A DNA stretch of 32,224 nt from Vicinamibacteria bacterium (GTDB lineage Bacteria > Acidobacteriota > Vicinamibacteria > Fen-336), in NCBI GenBank assembly GCA_025923995.1, contig JAICEW010000030.1, positions 1 to 32,224 of the forward strand. The letters are read 5' to 3'. Every line of letters starts with the position of its first letter. The stretch's first letter is position 1. The translations under genes and the position numbers were made by a program. The notes beneath the pieces are model-generated. The model saw only the letters and a list, made by a program, of their open reading frames with translations. It was not told the DNA's origin and made no database searches. Positions 4,748 through 22,948 of the stretch are shown one piece after another.

Positions 4748-4769
4748 ACTCGAAGCGAAGCACATTCTG

Positions 4770-6248
<1,479 letters not shown>

Positions 6249-15566: not shown

Positions 15567-16379
15567 ATGTCGCTTGGGCTGAGGAAGTTGGGCGGTGTGG
15601 CGCTGGCGCTCCTTTCCTGCGGCGCGGCGGCCGCGGACGAGCGGCTCGTGCTGCTCGGAGGCGGTCCTCGGCCCCCCGAGGCCCTGTCCCGCTTCGCCGA
15701 GTGGGCGGGGGGGCGCAAGGCGCGCATCCTCGTGATCGCGTGGGCCAGCTCCGACCCCGCGGAGTCGTTCGACTCGTTGCGCGACGACTTCGCCCCCTAC
15801 CGCCCCGACCGCATGGACCTGGCGCCTTCGCCCCCGCTGGGACCGGGCGCGAAGGCGGATCTCTCGCGCCAGATCGAGCGCGCCACCGGCGTCTTCTTCT
15901 CCGGCGGGGACCAGGGCCGGATCATGGACGTGCTGCGCGACGGACCGCTGCTCGAGTCGCTGCGCGCACGCTACGAGGCGGGAGTGGTGTTCGGCGGCAC
16001 GAGCGCCGGCACCGCCTGCATGTCGAGCCTCATGATCACGGGCGACGGTGATTTCACGGTCATCGACGCCGACGCGGTCGGCGTGCGCGCGGGCCTGGGC
16101 CTGCTGCCGAACGTGATCCTGGACCAGCACTTCATCAAGCGCCAGCGGCAGAACCGCCTGTTCGGGCTGATCCTGAGGCATCCCGGTCGGCTCGGCCTCG
16201 GCGTCGACGAGGGCTCCGCCCTGGTCGTGCGCGACAACCGCCACGCCGAGGTGATGGGACGTGCGCCCGTGATGGTGGTGGACGGCCGCGACAAGCCCGG
16301 AGGGCTGGTGGTGCAGCTGCTGCAGCCGGGCGACCGCTACGACATCAAGAAAAGGAAGCGGGCGAAGGGGAACGACTGA
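15567..16379 (+). CDS. Cyanophycinase-like peptidase (S51 family) with N-terminal export signal
   Basis: LGGVALALLSCGAAAADERLVLLGGGPRP...; GVFFSGGDQGRIMDVL; nucleophile motif VVFGGTSAGTACMSS; GLGLLPNVILDQHFIKRQRQNRLFGLI. Confidence 0.9.
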   Translation: MSLGLRKLGGVALALLSCGAAAADERLVLLGGGPRPPEALSRFAEWAGGRKARILVIAWASSDPAESFDSLRDDFAPYRPDRMDLAPSPPLGPGAKADLSRQIERATGVFFSGGDQGRIMDVLRDGPLLESLRARYEAGVVFGGTSAGTACMSSLMITGDGDFTVIDADAVGVRAGLGLLPNVILDQHFIKRQRQNRLFGLILRHPGRLGLGVDEGSALVVRDNRHAEVMGRAPVMVVDGRDKPGGLVVQLLQPGDRYDIKKRKRAKGND

Positions 16380-16462: not shown

Positions 16463-16621
16463 TTACTTCGGGCCGTTCCCGGGCCACCCGCCGCCGCCTT
16501 CGTCCGTCTCGATCCTGGTCGACGAGTCGGACGTCGCGGTGACGGTCTGGTCGACAGAGGCCTCATAGGTCACGAGGCCAACGGTGAACAGCAGAAAGGC
16601 GATCCAAGTCGCTTGACGCAT
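16463..16621 (-). CDS. Small exported-looking Gly/Trp/Pro-terminated peptide (52 aa)
   Basis: MRQATWIAFLLFTVGLVTYEASVDQTVTATSDSSTRIETDEGGGGWPGNGPK. GGGGAGG SD immediately upstream of ATG at 16621; hydrophobic leader. Confidence 0.65.
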   Translation of the reverse strand: MRQATWIAFLLFTVGLVTYEASVDQTVTATSDSSTRIETDEGGGGWPGNGPK

Positions 16622-16635
16622 CGATCCTCCCCTGT

Positions 16636-16654
16636 AGCCGCCCCCTCGGCGGCT
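16636..16654 (-). promoter_or_regulatory. Leader hairpin just upstream of the small-peptide SD
   Basis: Minus strand AGCCGCC-GAGGG-GGCGGCT (7-bp stem, 5-nt loop) directly before ACAGGGGAGGATCGATG. Confidence 0.5.
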
Positions 16655-16715
16655 CACGAATGCGCATCCTTTAGCCAAAAGGGCGGGCTTGTCCAGCCCC
16701 TTCAGGGGGGCCCCA

Positions 16716-16744
16716 TTGACCGGGAAGCAAATGAGCCGTAAGGT
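16716..16744 (+). promoter_or_regulatory. Candidate promoter for the GAF-like/Fis-HTH regulator
   Basis: TTGACC (16716-16721), 17-nt spacer, TAAGGT (16739-16744). Predicted TSS falls about at the ATG at 16751. Confidence 0.45.
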
Positions 16745-16750
16745 GTGCGC

Positions 16751-17332
16751 ATGCGTGACCTGCCTGAGCTCGCCGCACTCCTGGTTGGACCGGATCCGCG
16801 CCTGGCAGCGGACCGGACGTTGGGGTTCCTGATCGCGCGCAGCCGCGCGCGGGGCGGGGCCGTGCTTCAGCTCCGTGAGGGCGAGCCGATGCCCTTCGCC
16901 ACGCGCGACCTGGCGGCCCCGCGACTGGCCGAGGCCGCCGCGCTCTGGCGCTCGCAGCACACCCGGCTGGTGGCCGGCAAGGTGGTCAGTTCCGCCACCG
17001 GACTGATGGTGCCGCTCCGCGACGAGGGGACGCTCGTGGGGGCGCTCTATCTCGAGGATGGGGGATCGTTCGACGAAGCGAGCGTGATGGCGTCGCTGCT
17101 CACGCTCACCAAGGCGGTGGGGTCGCGGGACCATGTCGAGACTCTCGCCACCTACCTCCCGGCGGTTCCCGCCGACGAGATCCTCCGCGAGCAGATGCTG
17201 GCCGCGCTCGACCGGAACGAGTGGAACATCTCGAAGGTCGCGCGTATCCTTGGCGTCGCGCGCCGGACCGTGTACCTGCGGCTGGAGCGCTACGGGATTC
17301 CGCGAAAGCGAGTGCCCAAGACGCTGAGTTGA
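16751..17332 (+). CDS. Transcriptional regulator: GAF-like N-terminus plus Fis-type C-terminal HTH
   Basis: VPLRDEGTLVGALYLEDGG...FDEASVMASLLTLTKAVG (GAF-like end); C-term LAALDRNEWNISKVARILGVARRTVYLRLERYGIPRKR (HTH_8/Fis). No AAA+ domain. Confidence 0.82.
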   Translation: MRDLPELAALLVGPDPRLAADRTLGFLIARSRARGGAVLQLREGEPMPFATRDLAAPRLAEAAALWRSQHTRLVAGKVVSSATGLMVPLRDEGTLVGALYLEDGGSFDEASVMASLLTLTKAVGSRDHVETLATYLPAVPADEILREQMLAALDRNEWNISKVARILGVARRTVYLRLERYGIPRKRVPKTLS

Positions 17333-18039
17333 TGAGCTCGAGAGAACTGCTGCTCGCGGTCGTGATCCTGGCGGCGGTGGCCGTCATCGCCGGGTTGATC
17401 GTGCGCGGCCGTGTGCGGCAGTGCTGGTCGTTCGCCGCCTACCTGTGCTCCGTCGTGACCTGCGGCGCCTTCTACATCCAGGACGCATACTTCACCAAGG
17501 AGTTCTGGATGACGCGCCAGATCATCTTCGACGTCCTCAAGACGGCGGTCGCGCTGGAGATCGCCTGGCAGGTGGTGCGCGCGTTTCCCGGCGCGTTGCG
17601 CACGGCCCGCGTTTTCGCGCTGCTCCTGCTGGTGGGCAGCACGATCCTCCTCGCGGCGGGCCTGTCGCACTCGTCCAACTACCTGGCCGTGCTTTTCGCG
17701 TGGCAGCCGAGGGTCGTGGCGTGCACGGCGCTGCTCTTCACCCTCACGGCGCTGCTCGTCGCCTGGTACCACCTGCCCATCCGGCGCCTGCACCGCGCGA
17801 TCATGGGCGGGTTCACCGTCTACCTGGCGTTCTTCGCGACCGTGCTGAGCATCCTGCAGCGGAGCTTCCACTCGCCCGAGGCGCGGTACTGGTACGGCCA
17901 GTTGGACTCGTACGCGTACCTGGCGCTCGTGGTCTACTGGGCACGGGCCGCCTGGGCCCGCGCCGAGGAGCCGATGCCTGAGCCTCTGGCCGTCCCGGAA
18001 CGTCGCGAAGCACCGGCGCTCGCGGAGAACGCCGCATGA
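17332..18039 (+). CDS. Polytopic membrane protein of unknown function (about 7 TM by eye)
   Basis: Multiple hydrophobic segments (LLLAVVILAAVAVIAGLIV; VFALLLLVGSTILLAAGL; ACTALLFTLTALLVAWY; FTVYLAFFATVLSIL...). ATGA overlap with the regulator. Confidence 0.75.
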   Translation: MSSRELLLAVVILAAVAVIAGLIVRGRVRQCWSFAAYLCSVVTCGAFYIQDAYFTKEFWMTRQIIFDVLKTAVALEIAWQVVRAFPGALRTARVFALLLLVGSTILLAAGLSHSSNYLAVLFAWQPRVVACTALLFTLTALLVAWYHLPIRRLHRAIMGGFTVYLAFFATVLSILQRSFHSPEARYWYGQLDSYAYLALVVYWARAAWARAEEPMPEPLAVPERREAPALAENAA

Positions 18040-18713
18040 CCTGGGCGATCGTCGCGGCCGGCGCGTCGCTCGTCGTCTTCCTGGTGCTCTCGCGCTACAT
18101 GCACAGCGCGCGGGTCCGTGACTGGCAGGCGCTGCCCACCGTGCGCACGCGCCGCTACCTGGCCGAGGTGGAGGACCAGATCGCGCTGGACGCGCAGGTG
18201 GTGGAGGAGGCCTACGGGGCCGCCGCCGGCTCGCGCGAGACGCCGGACGAGGCCGCGCACCTGCTGCGCTGCGCGTTCGACCTGATCCAGGCCACGCAGA
18301 CGGACCGGCTCCAGCGGCTGAAGCTGATGATGCAGTTCGCGCGCATGAGCGCGGCCATCCTGGTGGCGCCGCCGGTGCGCCCCGCGCGGTTCAAGCTGCG
18401 CGAGGTGCGCTCCGTCGCGGCCCTGGGGTGGCTGCTGCACCAGGTGCTGGTGAGCCCGACTGAGCGCTTCCTGGCCCGCCTGCGCGTGCTGGCCTGGGGC
18501 TTCTGGCTGGCCCTGCGCTCGCTACGCGGCGCGCGCGACCAGGTGAGCGAGAACCCCGCCATCGAGACCAACTGGGCGCGCTTCGAGAACGCCCTGGGCG
18601 ACTGGCGCACGCTCGACCAGGAGCACGCGTTCGCGGTGCGCCACCTGCTGCTCTCGCTGTCGGCCGAGCCGGGCGCGGTCGCGCCGGCGCCGGTCAACAA
18701 CCCACAGCCCTAG
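18036..18713 (+). CDS. Membrane-anchored protein of unknown function
   Basis: N-terminal TM (WAIVAAGASLVVFLVLSRYM), long alpha-helical remainder; ATGA overlap with the upstream gene. Confidence 0.7.
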   Translation: MTWAIVAAGASLVVFLVLSRYMHSARVRDWQALPTVRTRRYLAEVEDQIALDAQVVEEAYGAAAGSRETPDEAAHLLRCAFDLIQATQTDRLQRLKLMMQFARMSAAILVAPPVRPARFKLREVRSVAALGWLLHQVLVSPTERFLARLRVLAWGFWLALRSLRGARDQVSENPAIETNWARFENALGDWRTLDQEHAFAVRHLLLSLSAEPGAVAPAPVNNPQP

Positions 18714-18802: not shown

Positions 18803-20065
18803 CTGTACTTCATCTATAGCGTCCTGCTGGCGGTCGCGTTCGTCCTGGCGGTGCCGTTCTATCTCTGGAAGGGGCGCGCCACCGGCCACTACTGGCGGAC
18901 GTTCCGGGCGCGGATGGGCCGGTTGCCGGAGGGGCTGGCCGCGGGCCGCGAGGGATGCGTCTGGATCCACGCGGTGTCGGTGGGCGAGGCGCTGGCCGCG
19001 CGCTCGCTCGTCGCGCCGCTCCAGGACGCGCTGCCGGGACGCCTCGTGCTCGTGTCGACCTCCACCGCGGCGGGTGGCGCGATCGCGGCCCAGGGGCTGC
19101 CCGCCGAGCGGCTGTTCGTCGCCCCCTTCGACTTCCCGTGGGCCGTCGAGTCCGTGCTGCGCGGCCTGCGGCCGTCGCTGCTGGTGCTGGTCGAGACGGA
19201 GCTCTGGCCCAACCTGATCCGGAGTGCGCGGCGGCGCGGGATCCCGATCGCGGTCGTGAACGGCCGCATCTCCGACCGGTCGTTCCCGCGTTATCGGCGC
19301 ATCCGTGGGCTGCTCCGCCACGTGCTCGCGCAGGTGGACCTGTTCCTCATGCAGGGCGAGACCTACGCGGAGCGCATCCGCGCCCTGGGCGCGCCGCCCG
19401 ACCGCGTGCGCGTGTCGGGCAACCTCAAGTACGACGCGCTCGGCGAGCCGCGCCCGCCCGCGGACCTGCAGGCGCTCGCGAACGGCGCGGGGCCGCTGTG
19501 GGTGGCGGGGAGCACGATGGCCGGCGAAGAGGAGCTGGTCCTGCGTGCGCTGCGCGAGCTGCGCGCCGTGCGGCCCGACGTGCGCCTCATCCTCGCGCCG
19601 CGGCGCCCGGAGCGCTTCGCGGAGGTCCCGGCCCTGGCGGAAGCCGCGGGCTTCCGCTGCGTGAGCCGCACCGCGCTCGGGTCCGCGGCCTGGCGCGACG
19701 GGGAGGTCCTGCTGCTCGACACGGTGGGGGAGCTGGCCGGCGTGTACGCGCTGGCCACGGTCGTGTTCGTCGGGGGCAGCCTGGTGCCGACCGGCGGACA
19801 CAACGTGCTGGAGGCGGCCGTGTGCGGCAAGGCGGTGGTGGTGGGGCCGCACATGGAGAACTTCCAGGAGATCGCGGACGCGTTCCGGGAGGAGGGCGCG
19901 CTCGTGCAGATCGACTCGGCCGCGCGGCTCGGGCCCGAGACCCTCGCGCTGCTGCAGGACGAAACCCGCCGCGAGCGCGTCGGAAGCAGGGCACGCGCGC
20001 TGGTGGACCGCAACCGCGGCGCGCGCCGGAGGACCGTCGATGCGCTGGCCGGCCTGGTCGCGTGA
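18803..20065 (+). CDS. waaA: 3-deoxy-D-manno-octulosonic acid (Kdo) transferase
   Basis: Internal motifs IHAVSVGEALAARSLV, VSTSTAAGG, ETELWPNLI, GGSLVPTGGHNVLEAAVCGKAVVVGPHMENFQEI. N-terminal TM LYFIYSVLLAVAFVLAVPFYLWKG needs an upstream start; CTG at 18803 fits. Confidence 0.92.
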   Translation: MYFIYSVLLAVAFVLAVPFYLWKGRATGHYWRTFRARMGRLPEGLAAGREGCVWIHAVSVGEALAARSLVAPLQDALPGRLVLVSTSTAAGGAIAAQGLPAERLFVAPFDFPWAVESVLRGLRPSLLVLVETELWPNLIRSARRRGIPIAVVNGRISDRSFPRYRRIRGLLRHVLAQVDLFLMQGETYAERIRALGAPPDRVRVSGNLKYDALGEPRPPADLQALANGAGPLWVAGSTMAGEEELVLRALRELRAVRPDVRLILAPRRPERFAEVPALAEAAGFRCVSRTALGSAAWRDGEVLLLDTVGELAGVYALATVVFVGGSLVPTGGHNVLEAAVCGKAVVVGPHMENFQEIADAFREEGALVQIDSAARLGPETLALLQDETRRERVGSRARALVDRNRGARRRTVDALAGLVA

Positions 20066-21054
20066 CCGCGCGCCCGTGGCTGGCCCCCGCGGGCGCGCTG
20101 TACGGCGCGCTGGGAAGGGCTCGCCTGGGCCTCTACCGTCGCGGCGTGCTGCGGTCCGCCAGGCTCGGCGGGCCCGTGATCAGCGTCGGGAACCTGGCGG
20201 TGGGGGGCCGGGGCAAGACGCCGGTGGTGGCGATGGTCGCGGAGTGGGTGCGCGACGCCGGCCTGCCGGTCGCAGTGCTGAGCCGCGGCTATGGCGGGAG
20301 CTTCCGCGGCGACGCGCTCGTGGTGTCCGACGGTGAGGGCGTCCGCGCGGATGCCGAGGAAGCCGGGGACGAGCCGGTGATGCTGGCGCGGCGGCTGCCC
20401 GGCGTCGTGGTCGCGGTGGGCGCGCGCCGGGACCGAGTCGGGCGGGCGGTCGAGGCGCGGTTCGGCCCGCGGGTGCACGTCCTCGACGACGGGTTCCAGC
20501 ACCTGCGCCTTGCGCGCGACCTGGACCTGCTGTGCCTGCGGCCCGAGGACCTGCACGACCGGCCGGTTCCCGCCGGCGAGCTTCGAGAGCGGGCGTCGGC
20601 GGCGGTGCGCGCGGACGTCTACCTGGTCTGGGATGGACCTCCACCGCTCGAGCTGCCCGCGGATCGCTCGTTCGAGGTACGCCGTCGGCTGGAGGGATTC
20701 GTCGATCGCGACGGCGCGCCCGCGGAGGCCCCACGGCGGCCGTATCCGGTTGCGGGCATCGCCCGCCCCGATCTGTTCGCCGCGGACGTCCTCGCAGCGT
20801 GCGGGGGCACCGTTGGCGGTGCCTACTTCGCTGACCATCATCGGTTCCGGGCGGGGGAGCTCCGGTGGGTCGTGCGCGACGCGATCGCCAAGGGCGCCGA
20901 TGCGCTCGTCACGACCGAGAAGGACGTGCCGCGCCTGCCTCCCGTGGACGGGCTGCCCCTGCGCGCCCTGCGCATCGGCGTCGAAGTGACGGAGGCGGAG
21001 CGCCTGCGCGAGCGGGTGCTGGCGGTGGCGCGCCGGGTGGAGGCGCGCACGTGA
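20062..21054 (+). CDS. lpxK: Tetraacyldisaccharide 4'-kinase
   Basis: VTARPWLAPAGALYGALGRARLGLYRRG...VISVGNLAVGGRGKTPVVAMVAEW...LSRGYGG...DEPVMLARRLPG...VHVLDDGFQHLRLARDLDLLCL. GTG start, GTGA overlap. Confidence 0.95.
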   Translation: MTARPWLAPAGALYGALGRARLGLYRRGVLRSARLGGPVISVGNLAVGGRGKTPVVAMVAEWVRDAGLPVAVLSRGYGGSFRGDALVVSDGEGVRADAEEAGDEPVMLARRLPGVVVAVGARRDRVGRAVEARFGPRVHVLDDGFQHLRLARDLDLLCLRPEDLHDRPVPAGELRERASAAVRADVYLVWDGPPPLELPADRSFEVRRRLEGFVDRDGAPAEAPRRPYPVAGIARPDLFAADVLAACGGTVGGAYFADHHRFRAGELRWVVRDAIAKGADALVTTEKDVPRLPPVDGLPLRALRIGVEVTEAERLRERVLAVARRVEART

Positions 21055-21980
21055 CGCGAGCGAAGCGCTTCGCCTGGGAGGAGCGCGCCGTCCGTGCGGC
21101 GTCCGCTCTCTGCGCCTGGCTGCCGCGCGGGCTCGTGCTGCGGCTGGGACGCGCGCTGGGGCGCCTGCTGGGCGACCTGGACCGGCGCCACATCGAGGTC
21201 ACGCGCGACAACCTGCGTCGCGCCTTCCCGGAGTGGCACGAGACGCGCGTGCGCCGGACCGCGCGTGACGTGTACGCGCACTTCGGCCTGGTCGTGTTCG
21301 ACATCCTCTGGCTCAGCCATCGGACGTCCGAGCAGGTGATGGCGCTGGTGGACGTCGTGGACGGGCACCATCTGGAGTCGCTGCGGCCCGAGGGCGGCAT
21401 CCTGGTCACCGCGCACCTGGGAAACTGGGAGCTGTGTGGCGTCGCCCACGGCTACGTCTTCCGTCCGGTGGGCGTGGTGGCGCGGCCCCTCGACAACGAA
21501 GCGCTCGATCGGCGCATGACGCTCTTCCGCGAGCGCGGCGGGAACCGGGTCATCTACAAGCAGAAGGCGCTGGCCCAGGTCCTGCGCGCGCTGCGCGAGC
21601 GGCGCGACGTCGCGTTCCTGATCGACCAGAACGTGCAGGAGAAGGACGGCATCTTCATCCGCTTCTTCGGCAGGCCCGCGGCGGCCACCACCGTCGCGGC
21701 CGCCCTCGCGGTCAAGACCGGCTGCCCCGTCATCGGTGCGCGCGCGGTGCTGTTGCCGAACGGCCGCTATCGGCTCGTGTACGACCCACCCATGCGCGCG
21801 CCCTCTACCGGCAACCGCGCGGCCGACATCGCCGCGATGACGCAGGCCCTGGCCGACACGATCGAGCGCTGGGTGCGCGAGACGCCGGAGCAGTGGCTGT
21901 GGATGCACCGGCGCTGGAAGACCCAGCCTTCTGCACAGCCGTCCTCGCCGCCGGTCGAGGCCGCGGAGCCCTCCGCCTGA
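21051..21980 (+). CDS. Lysophospholipid/lipid A acyltransferase (LpxL/HtrB family)
   Basis: RHIEVTRDNLRRAFPEW; GGILVTAHLGNWELCG; RPLDNEALDRRMTLFRERGG; VAFLIDQNVQEKDGIFIRFFGRPAATTV; PEQWLWMHRRWKT. GTG start, GTGA overlap with lpxK. Confidence 0.93.
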   Translation: MTRAKRFAWEERAVRAASALCAWLPRGLVLRLGRALGRLLGDLDRRHIEVTRDNLRRAFPEWHETRVRRTARDVYAHFGLVVFDILWLSHRTSEQVMALVDVVDGHHLESLRPEGGILVTAHLGNWELCGVAHGYVFRPVGVVARPLDNEALDRRMTLFRERGGNRVIYKQKALAQVLRALRERRDVAFLIDQNVQEKDGIFIRFFGRPAAATTVAAALAVKTGCPVIGARAVLLPNGRYRLVYDPPMRAPSTGNRAADIAAMTQALADTIERWVRETPEQWLWMHRRWKTQPSAQPSSPPVEAAEPSA

Positions 21981-22948
21981 TGCGTGTGCTCGTGCGCGCG
22001 CCCAACTGGCTGGGCGACGTCGTGCTCTCGCTGCCGGCGGTCCGCGACCTGCGGCGCAACTTCCCGGAGGCGCGCATCGAGGTCCTGGCGCGTCCCGCGC
22101 TCGCGGCGCTCTACGGCGCGGTCGCCGAGGTGGACGCCGTGCGGGAGAGCCGGGGCGTGCGTGCCGACGCGCGCGCGATCGCCGGCGCGTTCGACGTCGG
22201 CGTGCTCCTGCCCAACTCGTTCGGGTCGGCCCTTGCGCTCCGGCTCGCGGGCCTCCCGGAGCGCTGGGGCTACTCGACCGACGGACGCGGGCCGCTGCTG
22301 ACGCGGCGCGCGACGGTCCCGCCCGCGGTTCGGGGCCGCAGCCAGGTGTACTACTATCGCGCCATGCTGGCCGGAGTCGGGCTGCGAGTGAGCGCTGCGC
22401 CTCAAACGGGCCTTCGTGCGCCCGCGGAGTGGCTCGACAGCGCCGACCGCCTGCTCGGGCCCGGGGAGTGGATCGGCCTCAACCCGGGCGCCGCCTTCGG
22501 TCCGGCCAAGCGCTGGCCCCTCAGTCGTTTCGCCGCGGTCGGCGACCGGCTCGCGCGCACGACGGGCGCGCAGGTCGCGATCCTGGGCGCGCCCCGCGAG
22601 CGGCCGGTGGCGGAAGCCGTGGCCGGCGCCATGAGCCATCCCGCGCGCGTGCTCGCAGGCGAGACGAGCCTGTCCGACCTCGTGGGCGTGCTGGCTCGCC
22701 TGCGCGTCCTGGTGACGAACGACTCGGGGCCGATGCACGTCGCGTCCGCGCTGGGGACGCCGGTCGCGGCCGTGTTCGGCCCCACCGATCCGCGCGAGAC
22801 CGCACCCGTCGGCCCGGCGCGCCTGCTGAGCGAGCGCGTCCACTGCGCGCCCTGCGGCCTGCGGGCGTGCCCGATCGACCATCGCTGCATGACGCGGGTC
22901 GCGGCCGACCGCGTCGCCGAGGCGGCCGAGGAACTGCTCGCCTCGTGA
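21980..22948 (+). CDS. waaF: Heptosyltransferase II-like (GT9)
   Basis: MRVLVRAPNWLGDVVLSLPAVRDLRRNFP; LNPGAAFGPAKRWP; LVTNDSGPMHVASALGTPVAAVFGPTDPRETAP. Confidence 0.9.
   Translation: MRVLVRAPNWLGDVVLSLPAVRDLRRNFPEARIEVLARPALAALYGAVAEVDAVRESRGVRADARAIAGAFDVGVLLPNSFGSALALRLAGLPERWGYSTDGRGPLLTRRATVPPAVRGRSQVYYYRAMLAGVGLRVSAAPQTGLRAPAEWLDSADRLLGPGEWIGLNPGAAFGPAKRWPLSRFAAVGDRLARTTGAQVAILGAPRERPVAEAVAGAMSHPARVLAGETSLSDLVGVLARLRVLVTNDSGPMHVASALGTPVAAVFGPTDPRETAPVGPARLLSERVHCAPCGLRACPIDHRCMTRVAADRVAEAAEELLAS

Follow-up and report, generated by a model that had tools for sequence, protein, structure and literature searches.

The window, by which is meant the whole stretch of 32,224 nucleotides analysed, contains a module of four genes (Table 1), all of which are present as first described. 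A gene for a small peptide precursor is transcribed divergently from a regulator gene, REG, which is followed by genes for two membrane proteins, M1 and M2. The preliminary description had assigned the peptide gene its own ribosome-binding site, and the ATG is indeed preceded by a strong one, GGGGAGG (16632-16626). GC content by codon position in this ORF is 0.55/0.55/0.83, which is coding-like in a GC-rich genome. ATGA overlaps had been claimed for both junctions on the other strand. That between M1 and M2 is confirmed by the sequence, but REG and M1 meet in TGATG, a 1-nt overlap.

Table 1. Genes and features of the peptide and membrane protein module in the window.
Feature	Position	Strand	Description
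Peptide precursor gene	16463..16621	-	52 aa, MRQATWIAFLLFTVGLVTYEASVDQTVTATSDSSTRIETDEGGGGWPGNGPK; hydrophobic leader (from which export is inferred), variable linker, single-copy Gly/Pro tail
Ribosome-binding site of peptide gene	16626..16632	-	GGGGAGG, read from sequence
Divergent intergenic region	16622..16750		129 bp, common to the peptide gene and the regulator gene
REG	16751..17332	+	193 aa; GAF-like domain (residues ~41-110) and Fis-type HTH (146-181), AAA+ absent
M1	17332..18039	+	Membrane protein of 235 aa with seven predicted helices, oriented N-out/C-in according to its positive charges
M2	18036..18713	+	225 aa; N-terminal membrane helix and predicted cytoplasmic helical domain

The peptide gene is convergent with a peptidase S51 (cyanophycinase-like) gene (15567-16379, + strand; PF03575, E 2e-19), a neighbour not seen at other modules. 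Downstream of the module is a run of KDO transferase, lpxK, lipid A acyltransferase and heptosyltransferase genes (18851-22948, + strand). A functional link to these LPS genes is unlikely, and the module is probably unrelated to the lipid A/core genes, because the neighbours differ at other loci.

Domain searches of REG found GAF and HTH regions only, in keeping with the earlier reading that it lacks an AAA+ domain. The Fis-type HTH belongs to PF02954 (HTH_8, E 4e-11). The GAF domain gives a weak match in the window member (E 0.02) and a clear one in 7 of 14 homologues (best E 1e-11). A GAF domain combined with a Fis HTH recalls NtrC and NifA, and among PDB entries the HTH half of REG has matches in NifA and in a chain of a sigma-54 regulator. 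However, REG is without the AAA+ sigma-54 activation domain, and therefore cannot work by the NtrC/NifA sigma-54 mechanism.

In the divergent gap of the window, TTGACC-N17-TAAGGT (16716-16744, + strand) faces REG, a weak match that was unreported by the promoter scan. A different element, GTATAC-N17-GTATAC, is absent from the window's own gap and is present in the REG/peptide gaps of L030-L035 and L045, 36-52 bp before the peptide start. At two or fewer mismatches the pair was found in 7 of 19 gaps, compared with an average of 0.04 and a maximum of 1 in shuffles. With one mismatch allowed, it occurs at eight places in eight whole genomes, and six of these are the gaps named; the other two sites are at G000:C313:1411 and, in G002, in the stretch separating M1 from a small gene. 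Because its 17-base spacing equals the -35/-10 spacing, the element could serve as an operator, as a special promoter or as both. Judged from such sequence features, REG is likely to control the precursor; for the window, geometry alone points to this.

Neither membrane protein had been recognised when the locus was first described, and M1 and M2 match no known family or pathway. Sequence searches of Pfam, NCBIfam, PHROGs, PADLOC and the PDB gave no usable match for M1, M2 or the peptide. Isolated matches, to lipoprotein signal peptidase (E 0.04) and YccF (E 1e-4, in 2 of 21), were judged to be composition or HTH noise, as were CagY repeats over part of M2 (E 2e-6) and a PADLOC mad1 match confined to the HTH. 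The AlphaFold2 model of M1 has seven helices (pLDDT 88, pTM 0.82) and that of M2 one membrane helix and a helical domain (pLDDT 79.5). From the placement of positive residues, the N-terminus of M1 is predicted to be outside and its C-terminus inside, and the M2 domain is predicted to be cytoplasmic. Foldseek comparison of both models with the PDB gave nothing significant. The best natural matches of M1 were 7TM receptors and rhodopsins, and as these are non-significant (best E 0.1, TM-score ∼0.4-0.5) no relation to GPCRs is claimed. Three polar residues of M1, E76, W203 and W208, are invariant. A CAAX-type intramembrane protease was considered for M1 in view of the invariant E76 but rejected, there being no conserved ExxxR or His partner.

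The two faces of M1 differ in conservation, with 2.50 bits in the cytoplasmic half and 1.90 bits in the outer half (Mann-Whitney p 4e-11, residues not being independent), and the outer half diverged significantly faster in six of the seven pairs tested. Mean identities over 66 locus pairs are 33.7% for M1, 39.5% for M2 and 38.8% for REG. Such variation would be expected of an M1 whose outer face contacts a variable peptide and whose inner face contacts conserved partners.

M1 is present in 13 of 40 relatives and M2 in 14 of the 17 genomes of the window's order. Among the 193 genomes searched from the window's class, M2 was found in no others, and a 396-genome sample of the phylum added one match; as the class-level samples are draws from larger groups, prevalence figures here and below are approximate. 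The named records are draft metagenome-assembled genomes of Acidobacteria and one labelled Acidimicrobiia, which groups in the same class as the other records in the genome search. Genomes with the module have one to three copies of it, divergent from each other. In a check for a mobile origin, M1 was not found in plasmid records and M2 was not found in phage records.

All 18 examined loci of the window's order that keep REG, its upstream region and M1 also have an ORF of 32-68 aa divergent from REG, with a gap of 116-310 bp between the two. M1 and M2 lie behind REG in 10 of these loci and behind the peptide gene in 8. The divergent REG/peptide arrangement is thus the fixed element, whichever promoter serves M1-M2. 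A strict rule, which demands an SD, an ATG start, a length of 30-75 aa, a hydrophobic leader and an Asp/Gly..Pro tail, is satisfied in 15 of the 18 modules, and the other three own the ORF, each deviating on one point. Elsewhere in the sequence of these loci the same rule picks out one look-alike in ∼242 kb, or ∼0.0014 per interval. Under a similar rule, no non-divergent look-alikes were found within 1.5 kb of REG. Likewise, the peptide ORF was found beside none of seven REG paralogues without M1/M2, one of which offered 281 bp to inspect. Conservation of the peptide beside the regulator in relatives, which had been named as a check on the original proposal, is therefore seen in the loci examined.

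Precursors in the window's order open with a short N-terminus and a hydrophobic stretch, which a variable middle part connects to the tail, and many are small, at 32-60 aa with one short tail. The window tail is DEGGGGWPGNGPK, and single-copy tails elsewhere in the order are DGGNPWPKPPK, DGTSLPPPPPGP, DGSSPIPPPPPPPGP, MEDPFPPPRP, EGPINPPPKP, AGDPYGIPTPTPDL and NDGPGDMPPKR; DGSTGIPPHYADGSTGIPPH is a further example of a tail in the order. Tandem arrays replace the single tail in four loci of the order (DGSTGIPPHYA x3, AEGGAAFPTY x3, DGMTGIPP x3 and DGGSGIPPV x2). In a second class the ORF in this position is a longer array. The L086 precursor, divergent from REG and followed by M1 and M2, begins MKRMALIFTLVIGVLIGG and goes on to repeat DGGGPIPPAPTQ[IV]A in ten units, of which one has PAPAQ and the last ends in PPA-stop. 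L222 has four units of the DGGGPIPPAPTQ[IV]A type in the same layout, and L088 has two units. In the L087 genome, at least 8 units of EPVPPTAVLIADGP are on the contig bearing M1-M2, and the REG-bearing contig breaks off inside a precursor of which it retains the start (MKKTALKSLVVVVFLVSLGSYTTLSIAEQ) and three further units, the repeats having probably broken the assembly. Multi-copy precursors thus have 2-10 tandem cores, which are Asp/Glu and Gly rich and mostly not cationic. By its layout, the single-copy tail of the window is a short version within the family to which these long multi-copy precursors also belong. No signal-peptidase site was recognisable in the precursor, and no dedicated protease or exporter in the module.

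For comparison between units, the repeats were cut by period, blind to their sequence. The resulting pN/pS values are 0.11 for L086 (10 units), 0.09 for L087 (8 units), 0.13 for L035 (3 units) and 0 for L031 (3 units). Since the differences between units are mainly synonymous (pN/pS ∼0.1), purifying selection is acting on the amino acid sequence of the core, and the selection on the peptide that had been sought as a further check is seen in its multi-copy relatives. Homogenising recombination is an insufficient explanation, because recombination has no preference for synonymous differences. L031 and L035 differ in their core, which has been exchanged in every copy of the array, and between these two loci M1 is 64% identical, REG 80% and M2 82%. 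Given the strict-rule background counts and the pN/pS of the repeat units, a chance ORF is excluded. From the comparison of loci, it is close to certain that the gene module is real.

The M1 profile also has matches in 60 of 399 genomes sampled from the second class, and the distant M1 proteins belong to the same family (hhalign probability 99.6%, E 7e-24, 216 columns). Of the 20 M1 loci fetched from this sample, L222 is of the close type and two have <130 bp upstream, and 17 remain for the count. A precursor, exported-type by its leader, is directly upstream of M1 on the same strand in 15 of the 17. These precursors carry one to five Asp/Glu-Gly..Pro-Pro cores (ADG..PPP type), examples being ADGVPLPPPTQPPP x4, ADGGLPMPPPPKNAAS, ADGPEMPPPGIYL x5, DGTQPPVPPKA x5 and ADGTEPPPPP x2. 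The tail pattern was learned from the window-order loci, so that the distant loci are the more independent test of the strict rule, which is satisfied upstream of M1 in 13 of the 17, versus one match elsewhere in 280 kb of strand. The gene after M1 overlaps or abuts it in 18 of the 20 loci and encodes a protein of 177-202 aa with an N-terminal membrane segment, which occupies the same place as M2, though no homology to M2 is detectable (hhalign probability 7%). REG was found in L222 only among the 20 loci. On gene neighbourhood, the widespread unit is the precursor together with the seven-helix M1, to which some lineages have added the GAF-Fis regulator.

These proteins apparently form an undescribed family of exported-type, often multi-copy, proline-rich peptide precursors that accompany M1 across Acidobacteriota. 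The preliminary description had suggested a peptide-signalling or envelope-sensing module in which exported peptide, membrane protein and regulator belong together. The conserved association and the selection on the core speak for this suggestion, whereas the core unit differs from the one proposed at that time, since it is the precursor and M1 that are widespread and REG is limited to certain lineages. We give roughly even chances to an undescribed peptide-signalling system made up of the precursor, M1 as a 7TM receptor or processor, the anchored M2 and a lineage-specific GAF-Fis regulator. In such a system the hydrophobic N-terminus would take the precursor into or across the inner membrane, leaving outside the Gly/Asp- and Pro-rich tail with its one or many short cores. 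The variable outer face of M1 would recognise (or process) the core, and the conserved cytoplasmic face would pass the state on to M2, the anchored helical protein. In the window's lineage, REG would close the loop by controlling the precursor promoter from its divergent position. The computed support consists of the gene association, the multi-copy precursors, the purifying selection acting on their cores, the contrast in conservation between the two faces of M1 and, for one subgroup, an operator-like repeat. Weighing against the signalling reading are the failure to recognise a cleavage site, protease or exporter, the lack of any sequence or significant fold match between M1 and a receptor, the absence of REG beside most distant M1 genes and, in the window, a tail of one copy and a divergent gap devoid of the operator-like repeat.

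Known systems resemble the module in part, most closely the repeated propeptides of Bacillota and of yeast. Agr-type and ComCDE-type systems combine an exported peptide, a multi-helix membrane sensor and divergent peptide variants, but the module is without a kinase, response regulator, AgrB-like protease or peptidase-containing ABC exporter, and domain searches of REG, M1 and M2 found no histidine kinase or receiver domain. RRNPPA quorum sensing of Bacillota (Rap-Phr and relatives) includes tandemly duplicated Phr propeptides, and its receptors are cytoplasmic TPR proteins (PMC11343458). The likeness lies in a small exported-type propeptide (export here being judged from the leader) that is beside its partner genes and holds one or several short cores, and in the several divergent paralogous pairs per genome. 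The constant partner here is instead a seven-helix membrane protein and the regulator is GAF-Fis, in a different phylum and with no homology. A TPR peptide-binding domain was not found in the module, where REG has GAF and Fis HTH domains and M2 gave isolated sub-threshold TPR matches. The yeast alpha-mating-factor precursor MFalpha1 has tandem identical cores, and its receptor is a 7TM G-protein-coupled receptor (PMC5850478). A tandem-core precursor and a seven-helix membrane protein as presumed partner are likewise found here, but the yeast system is eukaryotic and G-protein-coupled, and the fold resemblance of M1 to 7TM receptors is non-significant (E 0.1). The M1 alignment shows no conserved lysine for retinal binding in its final helix, and a G protein is absent from the module. 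An independent bacterial parallel to fungal alpha-factor, with multi-copy proline-rich pheromones sensed by M1 as seven-helix receptor, relayed by the anchored partner and forming several channels per genome, is a tentative proposal that we hold at somewhat below even chances.

The same gene association would be seen if the precursor were a small regulatory protein tethered to the membrane, in the manner of MgrB or SafA, with the attached tail binding M1 of its own cell to tune an envelope response and with no intercellular message. The leader resembles a membrane anchor and has no clear cleavage site, and many members have a single tail copy. Up to ten identical spacer-joined cores, however, are more in keeping with a product released in many copies than with an anchor, and the cores have been replaced in concert in all array copies between L031 and L035; we regard tethering as unlikely. 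Multi-copy proline-rich precursors are also known for antimicrobial peptides such as apidaecins, a precedent for a bacteriocin or antimicrobial peptide with M1 and M2 in immunity or export and REG controlling the producer, and a variable peptide with a matching variable membrane protein is typical of immunity pairs as well. Cores of the composition given above do not suit this function, the module has no transporter or modification enzyme, PADLOC and PHROGs gave no match for M1 or M2, and a strongly conserved cytoplasmic face of M1 is needless for outward immunity, all of which makes a bacteriocin quite improbable.

A similarly low probability is given to a structural or surface peptide, or a substrate that M1 and M2 modify or display (such as a linker in the cell envelope or a novel modified-peptide product), rather than a regulator. 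Pro/Gly repeats are common in extended surface proteins and the invariant E76, W203 and W208 could be catalytic. Against this, a scaffold would need more length than many precursors have, a regulator with a fixed divergent position across the window-order loci points to a regulated signal, and no known modifying-enzyme domain is present. The consecutive prolines near the stop codon, and the position of M1-M2 after the peptide gene in 8 of the 18 window-order loci, would suit a translational arrest or leader peptide controlling M1-M2 in cis. Control in cis is impossible at the other 10 loci because M1-M2 lie on the other strand there, and stalling needs no tandem copies. Arrest is accordingly rejected as a general explanation, and together with a chance ORF it is given a very small probability indeed.

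Open-access literature yielded nothing on peptide signalling in Acidobacteriota, a phylum among the commonest in soil, or on the core sequences, which is weak evidence of absence. If the signalling reading is true, the phylum gains a cell-to-cell language in which the words, being repeated cores, can be read from genomes, together with a candidate membrane receptor of a new kind, promoters to assay, and a function for unannotated protein families found in many genomes. If the module is not for signalling, an unannotated family of exported-type multi-copy precursors with a dedicated seven-helix partner would still stand.

Several further features were seen at individual loci. Copies of M1 that are frameshifted or truncated occur in L037 (6464-7317) and L047 (7152-7804), and in L047 an intact-looking peptide gene (tail DDGTPIPRPPK) persists beside the M1 fragment. 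An extra ORF for a soluble protein of 80 aa (MQAQLSRSIP...) is found between M1 and M2 in L032 (174-416) and L034 (6729-6971), in two genomes of one genus, and one of these ORFs has its own GTATAC pair upstream. M2-like proteins of 243-280 aa, mostly distant from M2 and with an N-terminal membrane helix, are present in ∼47 of 299 second-class genomes. They were rejected as module members, as the 20 loci fetched (L156-L175) have no M1, REG or peptide nearby, and their genes are often beside lysyl-tRNA-synthetase-like or phosphofructokinase-like genes. The core DGGGPIPPAPTQ of L086 (3060-3578) includes PIPP.AP, which could be coincidence in proline-rich sequence; we take it to recall the plant peptide hormone IDA, as a lead only. 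Elsewhere in the window, a TPP riboswitch (RF00059, 72.5 bits; 4762-4869, + strand) is upstream of an ORF (4914-6248) resembling thiC.
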